This document shows positions 714 to 9,462 of a DNA stretch of 64,000 bases, in pieces. Each line of letters starts with the position of its first letter. Positions within the stretch are counted from its first letter, which is position 1. Under the pieces are notes generated by a model, which was not told the DNA's origin, did not search any database, and saw only the letters and a list, made by a program, of their open reading frames with translations. The DNA is from Flavobacteriia bacterium 40-80 (GTDB taxonomy: Bacteria; Bacteroidota; Bacteroidia; Flavobacteriales_D; Crocinitomicaceae). Both the position numbers and the translations under genes were made by a program. The stretch is from contig MKVF01000018.1 of the NCBI GenBank assembly GCA_001899145.1, positions 434,001-498,000 of the forward strand, in the 5' to 3' direction.

Positions 714-3332
714 ATGAAGTTACGTTACATGCTAATGTTCTTTGTAGGTTGTTTTGCCCAGACTGCTTTCAGTCAGTATTACGATCTGTATAAGGACGAT
801 TTTGAAGCAAATCAGGGTTGGACATTTCAGAATGGAAGCGGCCTTAATCACTTTATTCTTGGAGAATGTGCGGGAAATTCTGCACCCGCTTCCGGAACTA
901 CAGCGCTTTATGTTGCACCAATGACAGGAACAGGTTCTGACTGCTCTGTCGGTTCTCAGCTTTCGTATGCTTATCAGCCGACAGCGAGCGGAGTAGATAC
1001 TGTTTGGGCATTTCAGGCTTTGACCTATAATAACTGTGCTCAGAACTTGGTGGTTGATTTTGATTATAAGCTGGAAACCAATGACGCCAATGATAAAGGT
1101 GCAATTGTTTATCGCCTGAACGCTTCTTCCCAGTGGCAGGTGCTGGCAGTTTTGGCTACTTCTACCAATTCATGGCTGAATGCGAGCTACAGCTTGCCAG
1201 CCTCATTAAACGGCCAGAATTTTGAAATAGGATTTTTGTTTACATTCGATAACAGTACTGTGAGCGGAATCCCGTTCGCGATTGATAATTTTACCGTAAA
1301 AGGCCTGGATATTATTGATCCGGTGATTTCCTGCCCGACAGCCCATTCGTTGATCGGAGATGCGAATTGCTCCGTTGTCCTGCCTGATCTGACAGGACTG
1401 GTTACCGCCAGTGACAATTGCTCACTGACAGCCGACCTGTCTTATTCCCAGTCTCCGAATATGGGAGAAACAGCGATAGGAACGTCAACAATTACATTTA
1501 CGGTATATGATGAGTCAAATAACTCGGCAAGCTGTACCATGACGCTGAACATGATTGATACGATCCGGCCTGTGATCGTGTGTAATCAGTTTGTCAATAT
1601 CAGTAACAATAACACGGCTTGTAATTATCTCGTTCCTGATCTGACAGGAGAAGTTGTTTCCATAACAGACAATTGTTCTTCTTCTAATTTTATTATTTCT
1701 CAGACACCTACTGTCGGAACCTCTGTTTCCGGAATTTTTAATGCTGTGGTAACTGTTGAAGATGAGCAGGGGAACGCAACTACCTGTTTTGTCCGTTTAC
1801 TTCCTGTTGACACGATCGCTCCGGTAATTACCTGTCCGAATGATGTAGTGGTGAACAACGGCACAAGCTGTACTTTTGTCGTTCCTGATTACACTCCGCA
1901 AGCCGTTGTGACTGATAACTGCGTGCTGTTATCTACCGTTCAGGTTCCGGCGGCAGGAGCAACTATTAATTCGGGAATCCATACGTTTAAGATCCGTGCG
2001 ACGGACGAGCTGGGGAACTATTCTGAATGTTCCTTCCAGGTAAGTGCGATCGAATCACAGGCCCCTCAGATCGTTGCCTGTCCTTCTGATATCTCTACAT
2101 GCGACTCTGTGATCAACTTCCAGAACATTACTGCAACTGATAACTGTCTGGTCGGGGTTTTTAAAGCAGATAATACCGGATTGAACTCAGGAGATGTGTT
2201 TCCTGTGGGAGTCACAAACTTAGAATATATAGCGAGAGATTCCTCCGGAAATACGGCGACATGCGCTTTTTCAGTAACACGCCTTGCTTTGCCTGAAGTA
2301 CCTTCATTCATAGAAGATACGATTAATCTGTGTAACCAGAATTCAACAGCGATTGCAGCGGTACCGGTAACACAGGGAACAGGATACTGGTCTGTTCCTT
2401 CTGGCTCATCTGTTACTATAGCAGATGTGAATCAGGCTTCCACAACAGCCTCAGGATTGGCGCCGGGAAGTAATGTGGTGATTTGGAACACGACTTCACA
2501 AAACTGCGGAAGCACATTTAAGAATTTAATTATTAATAATTATTCATTGTCCTCTCCTTCAGTTGTGTTGAAAGACACAACTTATAATTGTGGTACAGGA
2601 AATGTGCTGCTGACTGCACAACCTCCTCAGTCAGGAACAGGAATCTGGACCTCCGATGTTCAGAGTACCATTACAAATGCGAATTATCATAATGCTTTGG
2701 CAACTAACTTACAGGGAGGCTGGAATACGTTTTATTATACCGTTACTAACGGAGTCTGCCCTTCAAATGTGGACTCCATGAAAGTATTTAAGATGGTAAA
2801 ACCTCAGATCTTGAATATTTCTGATACGTCCGTGTGTGAGAAAACAGTACTGGAGCTGGTAGGTACGACTCCTCCGTCATATACGCAGGCTATTTGGTAT
2901 TTTGAAGAAGGAAACGGATCTTTTTCCAATGAATTCAGTCCTGTGACACAACTGACGGATTATAAAATGGGAACCAGCGTGATTGTTTATTCGTTCAATC
3001 ACAGTTACTGCGGCCTGGCGAATGATACGCTGATCCTGACATACAATAATTGTGACGGAAATGAATTTGTGATTCCGACGCTTATTACACCGAATCAGGA
3101 TGGTAAGAACGATTCTTTTGTGATTGACGGACTAAATGCGAAATATCCGAAATGTAAGATGACAATTGTCAACCGTTGGGGAAGCATTGTATTTGAGTCA
3201 GACGGTTATCCTGTAGCCTGGGACGGGACTTTCAAAGGAGATCCGCTCCCTGTGGGAACTTACTATTATGTCATTGAGCTAAATGACGGTAATAAAAAAT
3301 CACTTACAGGACCAATTAGTATCATTCGTTAA
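714..3332 (+). CDS. HYR-repeat cell-surface protein with T9SS type B (CHU_C) sorting domain
   Basis: A large secreted protein of 872 residues. A signal peptide (about 1-20, ending near AFSQ) is followed by a jelly-roll-like region (25-195). Four HYR-type Ig-like domains follow (about 200-530), each with the pattern DxxxPxIxCP and a DNCS or DNC core. A cysteine-containing beta-rich stretch comes next. The last 90 residues, from about VIPTLITPNQDGKNDSF to the end, are a gliding-motility C-terminal domain with NRWGxxVFE and GTYYYVIE, which marks type B T9SS cargo. HYR domains are usually adhesive. The gene directly precedes a PorP/SprF gene by 11 bases, an arrangement typical of type B cargo that needs a dedicated SprF-like partner. 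The ligand is unknown. Confidence 0.88.
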   Translation: MKLRYMLMFFVGCFAQTAFSQYYDLYKDDFEANQGWTFQNGSGLNHFILGECAGNSAPASGTTALYVAPMTGTGSDCSVGSQLSYAYQPTASGVDTVWAFQALTYNNCAQNLVVDFDYKLETNDANDKGAIVYRLNASSQWQVLAVLATSTNSWLNASYSLPASLNGQNFEIGFLFTFDNSTVSGIPFAIDNFTVKGLDIIDPVISCPTAHSLIGDANCSVVLPDLTGLVTASDNCSLTADLSYSQSPNMGETAIGTSTITFTVYDESNNSASCTMTLNMIDTIRPVIVCNQFVNISNNNTACNYLVPDLTGEVVSITDNCSSSNFIISQTPTVGTSVSGIFNAVVTVEDEQGNATTCFVRLLPVDTIAPVITCPNDVVVNNGTSCTFVVPDYTPQAVVTDNCVLLSTVQVPAAGATINSGIHTFKIRATDELGNYSECSFQVSAIESQAPQIVACPSDISTCDSVINFQNITATDNCLVGVFKADNTGLNSGDVFPVGVTNLEYIARDSSGNTATCAFSVTRLALPEVPSFIEDTINLCNQNSTAIAAVPVTQGTGYWSVPSGSSVTIADVNQASTTASGLAPGSNVVIWNTTSQNCGSTFKNLIINNYSLSSPSVVLKDTTYNCGTGNVLLTAQPPQSGTGIWTSDVQSTITNANYHNALATNLQGGWNTFYYTVTNGVCPSNVDSMKVFKMVKPQILNISDTSVCEKTVLELVGTTPPSYTQAIWYFEEGNGSFSNEFSPVTQLTDYKMGTSVIVYSFNHSYCGLANDTLILTYNNCDGNEFVIPTLITPNQDGKNDSFVIDGLNAKYPKCKMTIVNRWGSIVFESDGYPVAWDGTFKGDPLPVGTYYYVIELNDGNKKSLTGPISIIR

Positions 3333-3343
3333 TCTGTTTAGTC

Positions 3344-4384
3344 ATGAAGAAATTTAGAATAATCATATTAAGTGCATTAACGTTTGGTGTGACATCCGTT
3401 TTTGCACAACAGGAGTTTCAGTTCGGAAACTACACACATAATCCTTATCTTTTCAATCCTGCTGCAGGCGGATTGACGGATTTCACCCAGATTGATCTGG
3501 GATACCGCAATCAGCATATCAGCTCCGATGGAAATCCGGTAACGATGTATTTGTCAGGACATACGCAGCTATACCTGAAAAAGAATAAGGGAGCTGCCAA
3601 GGTATTTAATCCGGATGGTGTTTCCATGTACACACCGCCTTTGAACAGTGTAGGGAAATTTAAGCAGATTGTTGGGGGAAGAGTAATTAATGATGGAATC
3701 GGGCCATTCCAGAAGACAGGAATTATGGCAACTTATGCCGTTCATCTTCCTTTGACTAAAAAGCTTAGTTTCGGAGCAGGACTGGGCTTAGGATGGAACA
3801 ACATCGGTATCAACCCTTCCAAAGTAGTGGTTCAGTCGGAAGCAGATGATATCCTGCAGGGATTCGGAGCAAGATGGAACCAGAACAACCTGGATCTTCA
3901 GGCAGGCTTAGTGGTTTATACGGATAGATTTACGTTCAGCTTTAGCGGGACACAGTTATTAGGCAGCAAGTTTAACTTTAGTGATGCTTATTTTATAAGT
4001 AAGCTGAACAGTCACTGGCTGATTTATTCGTCCTATAAAATAAAAGCGGGAGAAAACTTTACCGTTGAGCCGTTCATGATGGCAAGAGCCGTGAAAAATT
4101 CACCGTTCAGCGCAGATTTGGGAGCGAAAGTCCATTACAATTACTTATGGCTGGGAGCACAATACAGAACATCTCAGTCCTTTGTGATCTCACTGGGATT
4201 GAACTTCCTGAAAAATCTGTACCTGAGCTATGCTTTCGAATACAGCGCCAAAGCAACAAGAGTTTCGACAGCAGGAACACATGAAATACAGCTGGGAATC
4301 TATCTGGGAAAATCCAGAAAAGCCGCAGCTAAAACGATTCCGCCGGTTGAAAATACAGAAGAACCCGAAACTTCAGGAGAGTAA
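3344..4384 (+). CDS. PorP/SprF family type IX secretion system membrane protein
   Basis: 346 residues with a signal peptide (about 1-21, ending SVFAQ) and the family opening QFGNYTHNPYLFNPAAGG. Amphipathic beta-strand repeats typical of an outer-membrane barrel follow. Known SprF/PorP proteins sit in the outer membrane and help export or anchor type B T9SS cargo. The gene starts 11 bases after the upstream CHU_C protein and ends at a strong terminator (4406-4433), so the two form a cargo-partner operon. The last 25 residues are acidic and unstructured. Specificity for the upstream protein is inferred from linkage. Confidence 0.88.
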   Translation: MKKFRIIILSALTFGVTSVFAQQEFQFGNYTHNPYLFNPAAGGLTDFTQIDLGYRNQHISSDGNPVTMYLSGHTQLYLKKNKGAAKVFNPDGVSMYTPPLNSVGKFKQIVGGRVINDGIGPFQKTGIMATYAVHLPLTKKLSFGAGLGLGWNNIGINPSKVVVQSEADDILQGFGARWNQNNLDLQAGLVVYTDRFTFSFSGTQLLGSKFNFSDAYFISKLNSHWLIYSSYKIKAGENFTVEPFMMARAVKNSPFSADLGAKVHYNYLWLGAQYRTSQSFVISLGLNFLKNLYLSYAFEYSAKATRVSTAGTHEIQLGIYLGKSRKAAAKTIPPVENTEEPETSGE

Positions 4385-4462: not shown

Positions 4463-4918
4463 ATGATCCCAAGAAAGTCAAAATATGCAATTCAGGCATT
4501 AAAAAGCCTGGCAAAAGTTTATCCTGAAAAGGGGCGGCTTGCTATTGCTTTTATTGCAGATCAGGAACGGATTCCGAAAAAATTTCTGGAAGCAATTCTG
4601 CTGCAGCTTAGAAATGTAGGAATTGTCGGAAGTAAAATGGGACCGGCCGGAGGATATTATCTTTTGAAATCACCTGATGATATTGCATTGAGTGATATTA
4701 TAAGAGCGACAGGAGGGCCCATCGCTTTGTTGCCTTGCGTGAGCCTGAATTTCTATGAAGCCTGTGAAGATTGCCCCAGTGAAGAATTGTGCGGATTGCA
4801 TGAAGTTTTGGAAGAAGTCCGTGAAGCATCTGTACGGATTCTTGCGAAAACAAGCCTGACTGATTTAATTAAAAGAGAATCGAAGCTTTTGAAGTTAAGT
4901 CAAAGTACTGATAATTAA
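4463..4918 (+). CDS. Rrf2 family transcriptional regulator, four-cysteine type
   Basis: 151 residues with the Rrf2 winged helix: an N-terminal helix starting MIPRKSKYAIQAL, a recognition region around QERIPKKFLEAIL, and the wing GPAGGYYL (60-67). Cys92, Cys101, Cys104 and Cys110 form a cluster where IscR-type proteins bind an Fe-S cluster (C92, C98, C104 in IscR). The extra cysteine makes metal or Fe-S sensing plausible but unproven. The gene stands directly before sulfate assimilation genes. A CymR/IscR-like role in sulfur control is therefore likely by context. A purine-rich AAGGAGA lies upstream of the start. A 131-base gap with a candidate dyad separates it from the transporter fusion. 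Confidence 0.85.
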   Translation: MIPRKSKYAIQALKSLAKVYPEKGRLAIAFIADQERIPKKFLEAILLQLRNVGIVGSKMGPAGGYYLLKSPDDIALSDIIRATGGPIALLPCVSLNFYEACEDCPSEELCGLHEVLEEVREASVRILAKTSLTDLIKRESKLLKLSQSTDN

Positions 4919-5049: not shown

Positions 5050-6519
5050 ATGGGAAGAACTAAAAAACTTTTACCAATTTTCGTTAGAGAACAAGAAGTT
5101 CATTTAATTATTTCGGATGTACAGGATGCTGATTTAGAAAACGTTCGTGCCCTTATTTCCGGTTTCAGACAAACTTCCATTTATTTAATCAACGCAAAGG
5201 TTTCGGAAGCAGCTCTCACAGAGTTTACTCTGTTTGGCAATGTTATCGTTAAGCAGCAGACAGATGATAATATCATTTCAGCTGCACGATTTGTTTTTTC
5301 ATTTTCCAGGGAGAAGACAGCAGCTGAATCTTTGATGAATCATGCTCACACGAACGGAATATTAGTGACTTTTGCTTTTTTTCCGGAGCTGAGTAATTTC
5401 TTTTTTGGAAAATCCGTTGATAAAGGGTCTGTTCATTTGGCTGTTACGGTTCAGGGAGAATCGCCGGTATTGGAGAACAGGATCCGGCAAACATTGGAAG
5501 ACCATTTTCCCGGTTCTGTATCGAAAAGCGCGGATCAATTGACCCGGTTAGAGTCGTTTCTCAGCAAAGACTTTAAAAAGAGGGTACATCAGCTGAATAA
5601 ACAAACGGCTGTTCTTGTCAGTAAGAAATCAAAGCCATGGTATGATTTTTCCTATAAGAAAACAGCAGTTTACCTGGTGAGCATTCTGGGAACAATGATT
5701 GCCGGGCATATCTTATTTTCCATGGTTCCTCCCGCTGCCGTATGGGAAAAATTCAACGCACTTGTTGATACGCTTGATGTAACATTCCTGTATTTTATTC
5801 TGGGCGGCTTTATCGCGCAGATGATCGATGGCGCATTGGGAATGGCGTATGGTGTTTCTGCGACGACCTTTTTGCTCTCCTTTGGCGTGAGCCCTGCTGT
5901 AGCGAGCATGTCTGTCCATGCTTCTGAAATATTTACCAGCGGTGTTTCGGGCATCATGCACCTGAAGTTCGGAAACGTGAACAGCCGCTTATTTAAAAAT
6001 ATTGTTGTTCCGGGAGTAATAGGAGCAATTATCGGCGCATATATCTTATCGGAATTTGAATCCTACAGCGCATATATAAAACCTATTGTGAGCTCCTATA
6101 CGCTGTTCTTGGGAGCGTTGATCATTTATAAAGTGGTACGAAAACGACAGAACCGTAAAAAAGTAACCAGAGTAGGCTGGCTGGCAACTTTAGGAGGTTT
6201 TCTGGACTCGATCGGAGGTGGTGGCTGGGGACCTGTTGTTTCTTCAACACTGATTTCCAGAGGTAAAAATCCCAGGATGATTGTTGGGTCAGTAAACCTG
6301 GCGGAGTTTTTTGTATCGCTGGCAAGCTCCATCACTTTTTTTAGTTTCATTGGCGCAGATGCGTGGCAGCCGATCCTGGGATTAATTCTCGGAGGAATCT
6401 GTGCTGCTCCTATTGCTGCTTATATGGCTTCCCGCTTAAATGTAAAAGCGATGATGCTTTTTGTTGGCATTGTTGTGATTATAGCCAGTCTGAAAAATGT
6501 TTTATCTATATTTTTTTAA
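5050..6519 (+). CDS. TauE/SafE family transporter fused to a degenerate Met8/CysG-N-like domain
   Basis: 489 residues in two parts. Residues 1-190 resemble the NAD-binding and dimerisation domains of precorrin-2 dehydrogenase (Met8, CysG N-terminus). The opening LLPIFV and the segment FFPELSNFFFGKSVDKGS...GESPVLENRIRQTLE (110-150) match that family. The glycine-rich NAD motif is replaced by ISDVQDADLENV (21-32), and the usual catalytic VVD-x-PEL is AFFPEL (109-114). The domain therefore looks catalytically dead. Residues 205-489 form a polytopic TSUP/TauE transporter with GGFIAQMIDGALGMAYG and GGFLDSIGGGGWGPV repeats, a family that moves sulfite, sulfate or organosulfonates across the inner membrane. 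Linkage to cysH-cysD-cysN supports a sulfate or sulfite role. The cysH ATG follows 2 bases after the stop. Confidence 0.85.
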   Translation: MGRTKKLLPIFVREQEVHLIISDVQDADLENVRALISGFRQTSIYLINAKVSEAALTEFTLFGNVIVKQQTDDNIISAARFVFSFSREKTAAESLMNHAHTNGILVTFAFFPELSNFFFGKSVDKGSVHLAVTVQGESPVLENRIRQTLEDHFPGSVSKSADQLTRLESFLSKDFKKRVHQLNKQTAVLVSKKSKPWYDFSYKKTAVYLVSILGTMIAGHILFSMVPPAAVWEKFNALVDTLDVTFLYFILGGFIAQMIDGALGMAYGVSATTFLLSFGVSPAVASMSVHASEIFTSGVSGIMHLKFGNVNSRLFKNIVVPGVIGAIIGAYILSEFESYSAYIKPIVSSYTLFLGALIIYKVVRKRQNRKKVTRVGWLATLGGFLDSIGGGGWGPVVSSTLISRGKNPRMIVGSVNLAEFFVSLASSITFFSFIGADAWQPILGLILGGICAAPIAAYMASRLNVKAMMLFVGIVVIIASLKNVLSIFF

Positions 6520-6521
6520 AT

Positions 6522-7211
6522 ATGAATCCATCTGCATTTGAACATATTAATACGAATGATCTGACAGAGCTGCTGACAGCGATTACGCAAGTAGAAGGTG
6601 TGAATGCCGCTTTTTCAACAAGCTTGAGCATTGAGGACCAGGTTATCACAGATGTTATTTTTAAAAATAATCTTCCTATTCGTGTTTTTACGCTGGATAC
6701 AGGACGTTTGTTTCCCGAAACGTATAGCCTGATGTCTTCCACAAGGGAGCGTTATAAGAAGGATTTGGAAACGTATTATGGAAAGGCGGAGGAATTACAA
6801 AAGCTGGTAACAGAAAAAGGGCCGAATTTATTTTACGAATCGGTAGAAAACAGAAAAGCGTGCTGTCATGTACGTAAAGTCGAACCGTTGAACCGTGCTC
6901 TGGAAGGTGTAAATGTATGGATCACAGGGTTAAGAGCGGAACATTCTGAAAACAGGCACGATATGCACGTATTTGAATGGGATCAGAGCCGTGAAATAAC
7001 CAAAGTAAATCCGTTGATCAGCTGGACGACAGAAGAGGTATGGAAATATATCCGTTCGTATAATGTTCCCTACAATGTTCTGCAGGATCGCGGATTCATC
7101 AGCTTGGGATGCCAGCCTTGTACAAGAGCGGTTAAAGAAGGAGAAGCCTTTCGTGCAGGACGCTGGTGGTGGGAAGATAATTCTAAAAAAGAATGCGGCT
7201 TGCATTCATAA
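6522..7211 (+). CDS. cysH: Assimilatory adenylyl-sulfate (APS) reductase, 4Fe-4S type
   Basis: 229 residues from the ATG at 6522; a longer open frame reaches into the transporter gene, but this start sits 2 bases after the transporter stop and gives the normal family length. The protein reduces activated sulfate to sulfite with thioredoxin. Visible motifs are SLSIEDQ (34-40), the nucleotide-binding segment LDTGRLFPET (58-67), the cysteine pairs C114-C115 and C197-C200, and the C-terminal catalytic ECGLH with Cys225. The CC plus CxxC set ligates a 4Fe-4S cluster in APS reductases and is absent from PAPS reductases of the E. coli type, so APS is the expected substrate. No APS kinase gene is present nearby, which agrees. 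Confidence 0.93.
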   Translation: MNPSAFEHINTNDLTELLTAITQVEGVNAAFSTSLSIEDQVITDVIFKNNLPIRVFTLDTGRLFPETYSLMSSTRERYKKDLETYYGKAEELQKLVTEKGPNLFYESVENRKACCHVRKVEPLNRALEGVNVWITGLRAEHSENRHDMHVFEWDQSREITKVNPLISWTTEEVWKYIRSYNVPYNVLQDRGFISLGCQPCTRAVKEGEAFRAGRWWWEDNSKKECGLHS

Positions 7212-7232: not shown

Positions 7233-8132
7233 ATGAGTGATTATTTAGACCGGTTAGAAGCAGAAGCAATTCACGTGCTGCGTGAAACTGCGGGACAATT
7301 TGAACGTCCCGCGTTGCTTTTCAGTGGAGGAAAAGACAGTATTTGTCTGGTGCATCTCGCGTTAAAAGCGTTCAGCCCGGGAAAATTTCCTTTTCCGTTG
7401 GTTCATGTGGATACGGGACATAATTTCCCAGAAGCACTGGCTTTCAGAGATAACCTGGCAGAAAAGCTGGGTGAGAAGCTGATTGTAAGAAGGGTGGAAG
7501 ATACTTTAAAGCGAAAAGGAATTCCGGATGCAAAAGGAAAATTCCCAAGTAGAAATGCTCTGCAGACGCATACATTATTGGAAACTATCGAAGAATTTGA
7601 ATTTGATGCGTGTATCGGAGGTGCAAGGCGTGATGAGGAAAAAGCCCGCGCAAAAGAACGCTTCTTTTCCGTAAGAGATGAGTTTGGACAATGGGATCCG
7701 AAATTGCAGCGCCCTGAACTCTGGAATATCTACAATGGTAAGATTCATAAAGGAGAAAACGTGCGCGTATTCCCGATTTCCAACTGGACAGAATTAGATG
7801 TGTGGAATTATATTCTGCGTGAGAATATTGAGTTACCTTCCATCTATTTCACACACGAGCGGGAATGTGTTGTAACAGAATCCGGCCAATTAATGACCAC
7901 AAATGAATTTGTGACGTTGGACGGAGCAGATGTTGTGGAGACGAGATTGGTACGCTATCGTACCGTAGGAGACATGACGTGTACAGCAGCTGTAGAAAGC
8001 CGGGCGGTGAATGTAGCCGATATTATCGACGAGCTGAAAAATGCAACTGTTTCTGAAAGAGGTGCAACAAGAATGGATGACAGAATCTCTGAAGCGGCGA
8101 TGGAAGACAGAAAAAAAGGAGGATATTTTTGA
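7233..8132 (+). CDS. cysD: Sulfate adenylyltransferase subunit 2
   Basis: 299 residues. CysD is the catalytic subunit of ATP sulfurylase and makes APS and pyrophosphate from sulfate and ATP, driven by GTP hydrolysis in CysN. The PP-loop FSGGKDSI lies at about 30-37. The family blocks HVDTGHNFPE, GGARRDEEKARAKER and the C-terminal DRxSEAAMEDRKKGGYF are all present, and the length is normal. It follows cysH by 21 bases and precedes cysN by 64 bases. That gap contains an ATTCA-type repeat able to fold into a hairpin. Confidence 0.97.
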   Translation: MSDYLDRLEAEAIHVLRETAGQFERPALLFSGGKDSICLVHLALKAFSPGKFPFPLVHVDTGHNFPEALAFRDNLAEKLGEKLIVRRVEDTLKRKGIPDAKGKFPSRNALQTHTLLETIEEFEFDACIGGARRDEEKARAKERFFSVRDEFGQWDPKLQRPELWNIYNGKIHKGENVRVFPISNWTELDVWNYILRENIELPSIYFTHERECVVTESGQLMTTNEFVTLDGADVVETRLVRYRTVGDMTCTAAVESRAVNVADIIDELKNATVSERGATRMDDRISEAAMEDRKKGGYF

Positions 8133-8196: not shown

Positions 8197-9462
8197 ATGG
8201 AATTATTACGATTTTTTACAGCAGGAAATGTAGATGACGGAAAGAGTACGCTGATCGGGCGCCTGTTACTGGACAGCGGTTCTATCTCTACCGATATTAT
8301 TGAGACGCTCACCCGGCAAAGTAAAACTGCCGGAGAGAATACAACGATAGATTTAGCGTTGCTTACAGACGGATTAAGAGCAGAACGCGAACAGGGAATT
8401 ACAATTGATGTTGCGTATAAATATTTTTCAACTCCGAACCGAAAATTTATCATAGCAGATACTCCCGGACATGCGCAATACACCCGGAATATGTTTACAG
8501 GAGCATCAACAGCAGATTTGGCAATTATCCTGATTGATGCACGAAACGGAGTGACCGAACAAACAAAAAGACATACGATTATTTCTTCTGTTTTGGGAAT
8601 TCCTCATATTTTGGTATGCATCAATAAAATGGACCTGGTAGCTTATAGTCAGGAACGTTACGAGGAAATTAAAGCAGATTTTGAGAAAACGACGAAAAGC
8701 CTGAACTTAAATAAAGTATCTTTTATTCCGGCTTCTGCTTTATCCGGAGAGAACGTAGTGACTGCTTCGGATAAATTAAGCTGGCATCAGGGACCTTCTT
8801 TGCTGGAATTTCTGGAAACAATTCCGGTAGAAGCTGTAAAAATGAACAACGCTGCACGTTTCCAGGTACAATATGTCATCCGTCCCCAAACTACTGAATT
8901 ACATGATTATCGCGGATATGCAGGCACCTTGTGGAGTGGAGAGCTAGCTGCAGGCGATGAGGTAAAAGTATTGCCCGGGGATTTTGTGACCAGGATTACT
9001 AAAATAGAACATAATTTACAGGAAGTACCAACAGCGAAAGCAGGCCAGCCTGTAGTACTTCAGTTAGAAGATGATATCGATATCAGTCGTGGCGCATGGA
9101 TCGTTCCCTTAGCGAAAACGCCATTTGTTTCAAACCAGGTAAAAGCGACTCTTTGCTGGATGGATAATCAGGCTTTTCGGACGGGTATAGTGAAGCTGGT
9201 TTTACAGCAGGGAAGCGCGAGAATAAAAGCGGCAATAAAAGAGATTGATTATAAGATAGACATTGAGAGCTTTGACAAACTGCCATCGGATGAAGAATTA
9301 AGATTAAATGAGCTCGCTTCCGTTAAGATCCGTCTGGCTTCTCCACTGATTTATGATGGCTACGACCAGAATCGTTATTCCGGGTCATTTATTTTAATCA
9401 ATGAATATACGAATCAAACTGTTGCGGCGGGAGTATTGAACAATGAGCTTGTTTTGGATTGA
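8197..9462 (+). CDS. cysN: Sulfate adenylyltransferase subunit 1 (GTPase)
   Basis: 421 residues. CysN is the regulatory GTPase of ATP sulfurylase, related to EF-Tu. Motifs: P-loop GNVDDGKS (10-17), DTPGH (88-92) and NKMD (143-146), then two beta-barrel domains. It stops at the ATP sulfurylase domains and has no C-terminal APS kinase extension, unlike fused CysNC proteins. That fits an APS-reducing pathway. The start at 8197 gives MELLRFFTAGNVDDGKS, close to the usual distance between start and P-loop. It is last in the sulfate cluster, with tpx 33 bases downstream. Confidence 0.97.
   Translation: MELLRFFTAGNVDDGKSTLIGRLLLDSGSISTDIIETLTRQSKTAGENTTIDLALLTDGLRAEREQGITIDVAYKYFSTPNRKFIIADTPGHAQYTRNMFTGASTADLAIILIDARNGVTEQTKRHTIISSVLGIPHILVCINKMDLVAYSQERYEEIKADFEKTTKSLNLNKVSFIPASALSGENVVTASDKLSWHQGPSLLEFLETIPVEAVKMNNAARFQVQYVIRPQTTELHDYRGYAGTLWSGELAAGDEVKVLPGDFVTRITKIEHNLQEVPTAKAGQPVVLQLEDDIDISRGAWIVPLAKTPFVSNQVKATLCWMDNQAFRTGIVKLVLQQGSARIKAAIKEIDYKIDIESFDKLPSDEELRLNELASVKIRLASPLIYDGYDQNRYSGSFILINEYTNQTVAAGVLNNELVLD

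Follow-up and report, generated by a model that had tools for sequence, protein, structure and literature searches.

A degenerate siroheme-synthase-like domain fused to a TauE/SafE transporter in a sulfate operon without a detected siroheme-dependent reductase

Siroheme synthases carry an N-terminal module (CysG-B/Met8p/SirC; TIGR01470) whose activity can be eliminated by a single substitution: in CysG, D104A is reported to abolish both dehydrogenase and chelatase activity (PMC7018833). Among transporters of the TauE/SafE family, growth restoration has been reported for a TauE homologue of Pseudomonas. No published account of a fusion between a Met8-type domain and a TauE transporter, or of the decay of such a fusion, was found among the titles and abstract openings searched. 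Here we describe a fusion of this kind from Flavobacteriia bacterium 40-80 (genome G000), encoded in a stretch of 64,000 nucleotides that we refer to as the window.

Both domains share one open frame without internal stops inside the window's sulfate-assimilation operon (Table 1). Residues 250-482, beyond the N-terminal domain, score 120 bits against PF01925, well over the gathering cut-off of 32.6, in agreement with the original prediction of a TauE/SafE transporter, and we predict this half to be a sulfate or sulfite carrier. Residues 8-167 match the NCBIfam model cysG_Nterm with 42.8 bits and an E-value of 4.6e-11, below the curated cut-off of 62.3; the siroheme synthase CysG model gives 48.9 bits (cut-off 400), and Pfam NAD_binding_7 gives E 0.045, also under its cut-off. 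A sequence search of the PDB with the window protein returned Salmonella CysG (E 0.00037) and SirC (3dfz, E 0.0073) as top matches. We modeled residues 1-197 with AlphaFold2 (mean pLDDT 71.8, pTM 0.56; full-length 489-aa model, mean pLDDT 72.1), and Foldseek placed CysG at ranks 1-27 (best E 1.1e-8), SirC at ranks 28-29 and Met8p at rank 30. In VIA-align, the model overlays CysG (6p7c) with a Z of 12.7 over 173 residues and an rmsd of 6.5. Since most of the input to this model (30 relatives, two of them degenerate) came from intact proteins, the model leans on those relatives; the TIGR01470/CysG and PDB sequence matches are independent of that pull. Together, the profile, PDB, Foldseek and VIA-align matches put the Met8/CysG-N kinship of the N-domain beyond chance, and the fold is the one originally proposed for residues 1-190. 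In G000, cysG_Nterm matches the fusion protein only; two further frames match NAD_binding_7, neither of which matches cysG_Nterm, and by eye we read them as an adenosylhomocysteinase and an alanine dehydrogenase.

Table 1. Features of the fusion gene and its operon (window positions).
Feature	Position	Strand	Evidence
Rrf2-family regulator, operon head	4463..4918	+	PF02082, E 1.7e-31
Fusion of degenerate Met8/CysG-N domain and TauE/SafE transporter, 489 aa	5050..6519	+	ORF and profile matches
Degenerate siroheme-synthase (Met8/CysG-N) domain, residues 5-190	5062..5619	+	TIGR01470, 42.8 bits; Foldseek/VIA-align to CysG, SirC, Met8p
Residues 22-31 (SDVQDADLEN), in place of the NAD-binding GG[G/S]xVAxEK motif, glycines lost	5113..5142	+	Alignment
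Codon of F110, catalytic Asp position (CysG D104), Asp lost	5377..5379	+	Alignment
TauE/SafE transporter domain, residues 250-482	5797..6495	+	PF01925, E 1.7e-34
CysH, best fit APS reductase	6507..7211	+	PF01507; TIGR02055 APS_reductase, 254.6 bits (cut-off 235.3)
CysD, ATP sulfurylase subunit	7233..8132	+	PF01507; 81-90% identical to operon CysD of relatives
CysN, ATP sulfurylase GTPase subunit	8197..9462	+	PF00009 and PF22594

The residues on which catalysis would depend are gone. Window residues 23-25 read D-V-Q where relatives have GG[G/S], and residue 110, which the PDB alignment equates with CysG D104, is phenylalanine in the window and aspartate in 53 intact relatives. Both the replaced glycine motif and the altered catalytic Asp region had been pointed out in the original prediction, and both are borne out. 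More broadly, the window keeps 21 of the 58 columns conserved in at least 90% of 51 intact relatives, and 11 of the 35 conserved columns that hold polar residues, glycine or proline. These losses support the view that the Met8-type domain is catalytically dead. We regard it as highly improbable that a rebuilt active site lets the domain work on a tetrapyrrole or other substrate: the fold is kept and P139 is retained at the place of CysG P133, but the Asp and every position of the glycine motif have changed, 24 of the 35 conserved polar/Gly/Pro columns are altered, and no siroheme-dependent reductase (PF01077) was found in G000.

We surveyed genome contigs for relatives of the fusion and retained the best 80 of 183 confirmed candidates as loci. 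Among these best 80, fusions occur in Fluviicola (a member of the window's family), Pedobacter, Adhaeribacter, Desertivirga, Solitalea, an Ignavibacteria MAG and others, and many of the lower-ranked loci match only the transporter part. A class-wide sample contains cysG_Nterm matches in 77 of 295 genomes; frames of at least 450 aa account for 33 of the 78 match rows, and in the nine such frames compared as loci the transporter half aligned as well. Judged from these matches, the Met8-TauE fusion is common in Bacteroidota. We aligned 60 sequences including the window, leaving out 22 exact duplicates. Both sites are covered in 56, and 53 of these keep GG[G/S] together with the Asp; the degenerate three are the window (DVQ/F), L050 (GSD/N) and L061 (GGA/K), all of which still have most of the N-domain. 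The N-domain is absent from L152 and L153, and contig ends cut L056 and L147 so that the sites are uncovered.

Because 53 of 56 sequences keep both motifs, the Bacteroidota fusion ordinarily carries a siroheme-synthase domain, and the class seems to pair normal siroheme synthesis with sulfate transport. We therefore rejected the fusion class as the carrier of a dead domain, since the homologues are intact. The original prediction that a TauE transporter carries a dead domain of the Met8 type stands by sequence for this protein, and the fusion itself is common; for the class it fails by a check of its own choosing, as homologues keep the motif and the Asp that the window copy has lost. The same homologues, and a genome with no NIR_SIR match, argue against the further idea that the dead domain senses a siroheme precursor, NAD or a partner sulfite reductase.

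We compared the operon structures of the window and its relatives. The window's operon runs Rrf2, fusion, CysH, CysD, CysN, whereas in L158 and in L039 from Fluviicola chungangensis the order is Rrf2, aldo/keto reductase, NIR_SIR protein, SUMT, fusion, CysH, CysD, CysN. The contiguous window operon is thus missing the aldo/keto reductase, NIR_SIR and SUMT genes, which family searches identified in L158 (PF00248; PF01077 with PF03460; TIGR01469 SUMT, 263 bits against a cut-off of 185). An Rrf2 orthologue also heads the operon in L152 and L153. In the window, the region ahead of the operon (714-4384) encodes an 872-aa protein in which a HYR domain is combined with a CHU_C type IX secretion signal; a membrane protein of the PorP/SprF family comes after it. 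Two genomes of genus g4 (G363 and G377) have the order Rrf2, TauE without an N-domain, CysH, CysD, CysN, with a TauE 78-80% identical to the window's, and L061 (genome G360) carries a degenerate fusion, CysH, CysD and CysN. In G162, a third genome of g4, neither the fusion nor CysH gives a match. In the MAG G460, the fusion gene and CysN (L156) are each split into two frames around an intact-looking N-domain, through either sequencing error or a recent break.

The substrate of the missing reductase is best judged from its surroundings. The NIR_SIR protein of L158 (L158:4948-7074, 708 aa) fits NirA-type nitrite-reductase models best (227 bits, cut-off 523); sulfite-reductase models, CysI included, score lower, and no NCBIfam cut-off is passed. 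As it lies in a CysH-CysD-CysN operon, we take it to be presumably a sulfite reductase. The protein represents a siroheme-reductase subfamily within a sulfate operon that fits no assigned model. Window CysH passes the cut-offs of the APS_reductase model (Table 1), the PRK02090 phosphoadenylyl-sulfate reductase model and TIGR00434 cysH, and does not pass that of TIGR02057 PAPS_reductase; APS reductase is therefore its best fit among the reductase-specific models, and CysDN with CysH should yield sulfite. The Pfam table of CysN lists no APS-kinase family. Of the sulfate assimilation operon in the original prediction, then, the sulfate-to-sulfite half is there, and the sulfite reductase is absent from the operon. 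Elsewhere in G000 (99.7% complete, 32 contigs), NIR_SIR (PF01077) likewise gives no match, so that a complete assimilatory sulfate reduction pathway, with its sulfite reductase, was not found in this genome.

Spanning the family genomes with a TauE of the window's type, we assigned an N-domain state from sequence in 41 genomes. The state of G449, whose gene starts off its contig, was read from the Asp half alone, and that of G460 from the split fusion; G351 (TauE 41% identical), G244 and G348 (weak matches) and genomes with only a stand-alone Met8 were left out. NIR_SIR is present in 32 of 37 genomes with an intact N-domain and in none of the four with a degenerate or deleted one (G000, G360, G363, G377; Fisher p 0.0012). 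Restricting the sample to genomes with a completeness of 90% or more and a contamination of 5% or less gives 22 of 24 and 0 of 3 (p 0.0034); the genomes are related and hence not independent, so these p values serve as a guide only. The five genomes with an intact fusion and no NIR_SIR match (G414, G428, G449, G482, G494) are all MAGs, in 250-670 contigs and 71-94% complete, two of the five being over 90%. There is only a very slight chance, in our estimate, that assembly gaps hid a siroheme-dependent reductase in G000 and that the domain is a fast-evolving enzyme. Such gaps are conceivable in a genome of 32 contigs, and a NIR_SIR match is also lacking in those five of the 37 intact-fusion genomes; against this, G000 is nearly complete, NIR_SIR and SUMT are gone from the place they occupy in relatives within a contiguous operon, and the three further degenerate or deleted genomes also lack a NIR_SIR match.

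L050 lies outside this 41-genome sample and shows a different arrangement. Its N-domain is degenerate, yet its MAG, G308, holds both NIR_SIR and a second, intact fusion, L055. The intact copy sits beside NIR_SIR and SUMT without CysH-CysD-CysN, and those three genes adjoin the degenerate copy. This arrangement points either to a duplication of the fusion with relaxed constraint on one copy, or to a MAG that mixes two organisms; duplication before decay is thus possible for L050.

We next consider how fast the N-domain has changed relative to the transporter to which it is fused. In a TauE tree of 54 sequences, with the TauE branch floored at 0.02, the terminal branches for N-domain and TauE are 2.98 and 0.110 in L050, 3.52 and 0.226 in the window, and 0.848 and 0.111 in L061. 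The corresponding ratios are 27.1, 15.6 and 7.6, compared with at most 4.5 in each of the other 51 sequences and 1.84 for the whole tree; L152, L153, L056, L147, L211 and L072, in which a domain or an end is missing or truncated, were left out. L061 and L050 each pair with a relative whose N-domain is intact, at supports of 80 and 91, which makes it probable that the N-domain decayed at least three separate times. The order of the window, g4 and Fluviicola in this tree is unresolved (support 35), and a loss shared by the window and g4 is therefore possible.

The decayed domain nonetheless keeps its interior. The window's N-domain has its full length and is hydrophobic at 46 of 52 core columns, those where 95% or more of intact relatives are hydrophobic, versus 20 of 111 non-core columns. 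Taking three intact relatives as starting points, we simulated neutral codon evolution, allowing no stops and matching either identity or the conserved residues kept, and found that in each of the 12 settings no more than 8 of 500 runs (range 0-8) attain the window's value. In a smaller series, 0-2 of 200 runs reach it in each of three, and none of 200 does so for L061 in each of three runs; the L050 core is not above neutral, with 32-48 of 200 runs reaching its value. A weaker measure, the conserved hydrophobic positions that are still hydrophobic, is reached by 4-11 of 200 runs for the window and 34 of 200 for L061. These simulations use an extant relative as proxy for the ancestor, let all sites mutate alike and, for L061, use a scaled target. 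Within those limits, they disfavor plain decay of the N-domain for the window and L061, though not for L050, and the rarity with which neutral runs meet the window's core argues that its N-domain is not free-drifting DNA. The fold thus seems to be kept and the active site not.

A core kept better than under neutral drift leaves room for a residual structural or regulatory role. The cheapest reason for it may be selection against a misfolded N-terminus, while a structural or regulatory role may be the more interesting one: the dead enzyme could be kept as a cytoplasmic Rossmann part that stabilizes, dimerizes or gates the transporter, by analogy with RCK/TrkA-N domains. We think this role unlikely, if worth weighing. 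Besides the core hydrophobicity of the window and L061, it draws on the retention of most of the domain in three separate degenerate copies and on a VIA-align match of the Rossmann part to the MthK RCK domain (Z 10.3, 95 residues, rmsd 2.9). That Z is slightly over those for SirC and Met8p (10.0 each), but the latter span 161-176 residues, and a Z of about 8 is common for unrelated Rossmann folds in VIA-align. Moreover, the NAD glycine motif is lost, the L050 core does not exceed neutral, and selection against misfolding alone could yield the same core signal. Finally, the two g4 genomes have the same short operon and a closely similar TauE without the domain, suggesting that the transporter can do without it.

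Overall, the account we favor, and hold to be probable, is that of a pseudoenzyme left behind by the loss of its cofactor's consumer, in an operon that now ends at sulfite, with the sulfite perhaps destined for sulfonolipids. The ancestral protein would have been a normal Bacteroidota fusion of a precorrin-2 dehydrogenase/ferrochelatase of the Met8/CysG-N type with a TauE/SafE sulfate/sulfite transporter. An ancestor of the window's bacterium would then have lost the NIR_SIR reductase, taken as a sulfite reductase, along with the neighboring SUMT. With the siroheme-dependent reductase lost, the siroheme-making half would have had no purpose and could shed its NAD-binding glycines and catalytic Asp, its branch growing to about 16 times that of a transporter half that stayed strongly constrained. 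What remains in the window would be a dead pseudoenzyme with its fold kept, in an operon whose other products (transporter, ATP sulfurylase and APS reductase) would still turn sulfate into sulfite. The most plausible destination of that sulfite, in our view, would be cysteate and sulfonolipids and not cysteine.

The fate of the sulfite can be approached through the rest of the genome. Cysteate synthase condenses phosphoserine and sulfite. Outside the window, L198 scores 608 and 583 bits with the cysteate acyltransferases 7u7h and 28eh and 222 bits with serine palmitoyltransferase, and is by these matches clearly a SulA/CFAT cysteate acyltransferase of sulfonolipid synthesis, an enzyme described in PMC9304779. 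For the cysteate route, PMC11211663 gives phosphoserine as the starting compound, in a main text that does not contain the word sulfite. A candidate for the preceding step, L163, scores 464.3 bits over 325 aa against the cysteate-synthase model NF053679 (cut-off 600) and 484.5 bits over 448 aa against the cystathionine beta-synthase model (cut-off 510.25), and may be a cystathionine beta-synthase rather than a cysteate synthase. Across the family, 16 of 49 CysH-bearing genomes lack a NIR_SIR match (11 of 33 good genomes), one of the 16 being G457, whose CysH is just 34% identical; this suggests sulfate reduction that ends at sulfite. Compact Rrf2-CysH-CysD-CysN operons occur in G191, G376, G351 and G432, genomes without a NIR_SIR match. 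Five of seven loci with short CysH operons (L215-L221, leaving out L219 and L220) were annotated for a cysteate-synthase neighbor. No L163 homologue lies beside Rrf2-CysH-CysD-CysN in the stretches from those four genomes (L215, L216, L218, L221), and in L217 (G372) one is separated by about 2.9 kb from a lone CysH. The acyltransferase is found in 15 of the 16 CysH-bearing genomes without NIR_SIR, but also in 177 of 200 family genomes regardless of whether CysH is present. We rejected the idea that it tracks CysH in NIR_SIR-less genomes, as it is nearly universal in the family, and the sulfonolipid link is accordingly not specific and not supported by CysH co-occurrence.

This independence of the acyltransferase from CysH leaves a place for another outcome, which we consider possible, if clearly less probable than the account above: the domain would be dead just the same, and the sulfite would be exported by TauE, pass into another sulfonate or enter a cysteine route of the CysO/CysM type. 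The model for sulfur-carrier cysteine synthesis is the mycobacterial CysO-CysM-Mec route. In keeping with such a route, L169 (window's genome, contig C10, about 154979-155818) comprises a MoaD/ThiS-MoeB fusion with an adjoining JAMM-type (desampylase-like) protease and CysM-like gene, which by analogy may provide a sulfur-carrier cysteine route from reduced sulfur. To our knowledge, however, no step feeds sulfite directly into such a route, and sulfite made just for export looks wasteful. Returning to the pseudoenzyme account, the combination in which the dead domain is kept as an RCK-like transporter regulator while the operon has been cut back to supply sulfite for sulfonolipids, and not sulfide for cysteine, is doubtful indeed; if it were true, both domain and pathway would have been repurposed.

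These loci amount to a natural experiment in which one half of a fusion lost the consumer of its cofactor. That half appears burnt out in the window and L061, is absent in two g4 genomes and was possibly duplicated first in L050, and the transporter half stayed conserved throughout. Should the sulfite indeed end up in sulfonolipids, some of the assimilatory sulfate reduction annotated in Bacteroidota would in fact be lipid biosynthesis.

Compared with the described siroheme-synthase module of CysG-B, Met8p and SirC, the window domain has the same fold, colinear over residues 5-180. It differs in lacking the glycine motif and the catalytic Asp, in scoring under the curated cut-off, and in residing in a genome without a detected siroheme-dependent reductase. 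With the TauE/SafE transporters linked to sulfate assimilation it shares PF01925, whereas no siroheme-synthase fusion is described for them in the sources consulted. The sulfonolipid (capnine) pathway is represented in the window's genome by the SulA orthologue L198 and the cysteate-synthase-like gene L163; these genes lie outside the window operon, and their tie to the shortened sulfate operon is one that we infer. The closest counterparts are the Met8-TauE fusions of Fluviicola chungangensis (L039, 56% identical to the window), Pedobacter (L064, 45%) and Adhaeribacter (L068, 41%), which have the same architecture and similar length, and in Fluviicola chungangensis also CysH-CysD-CysN downstream. 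Unlike the window, all three keep the active-site residues, and their genomes (G297, G320, G324) have NIR_SIR.
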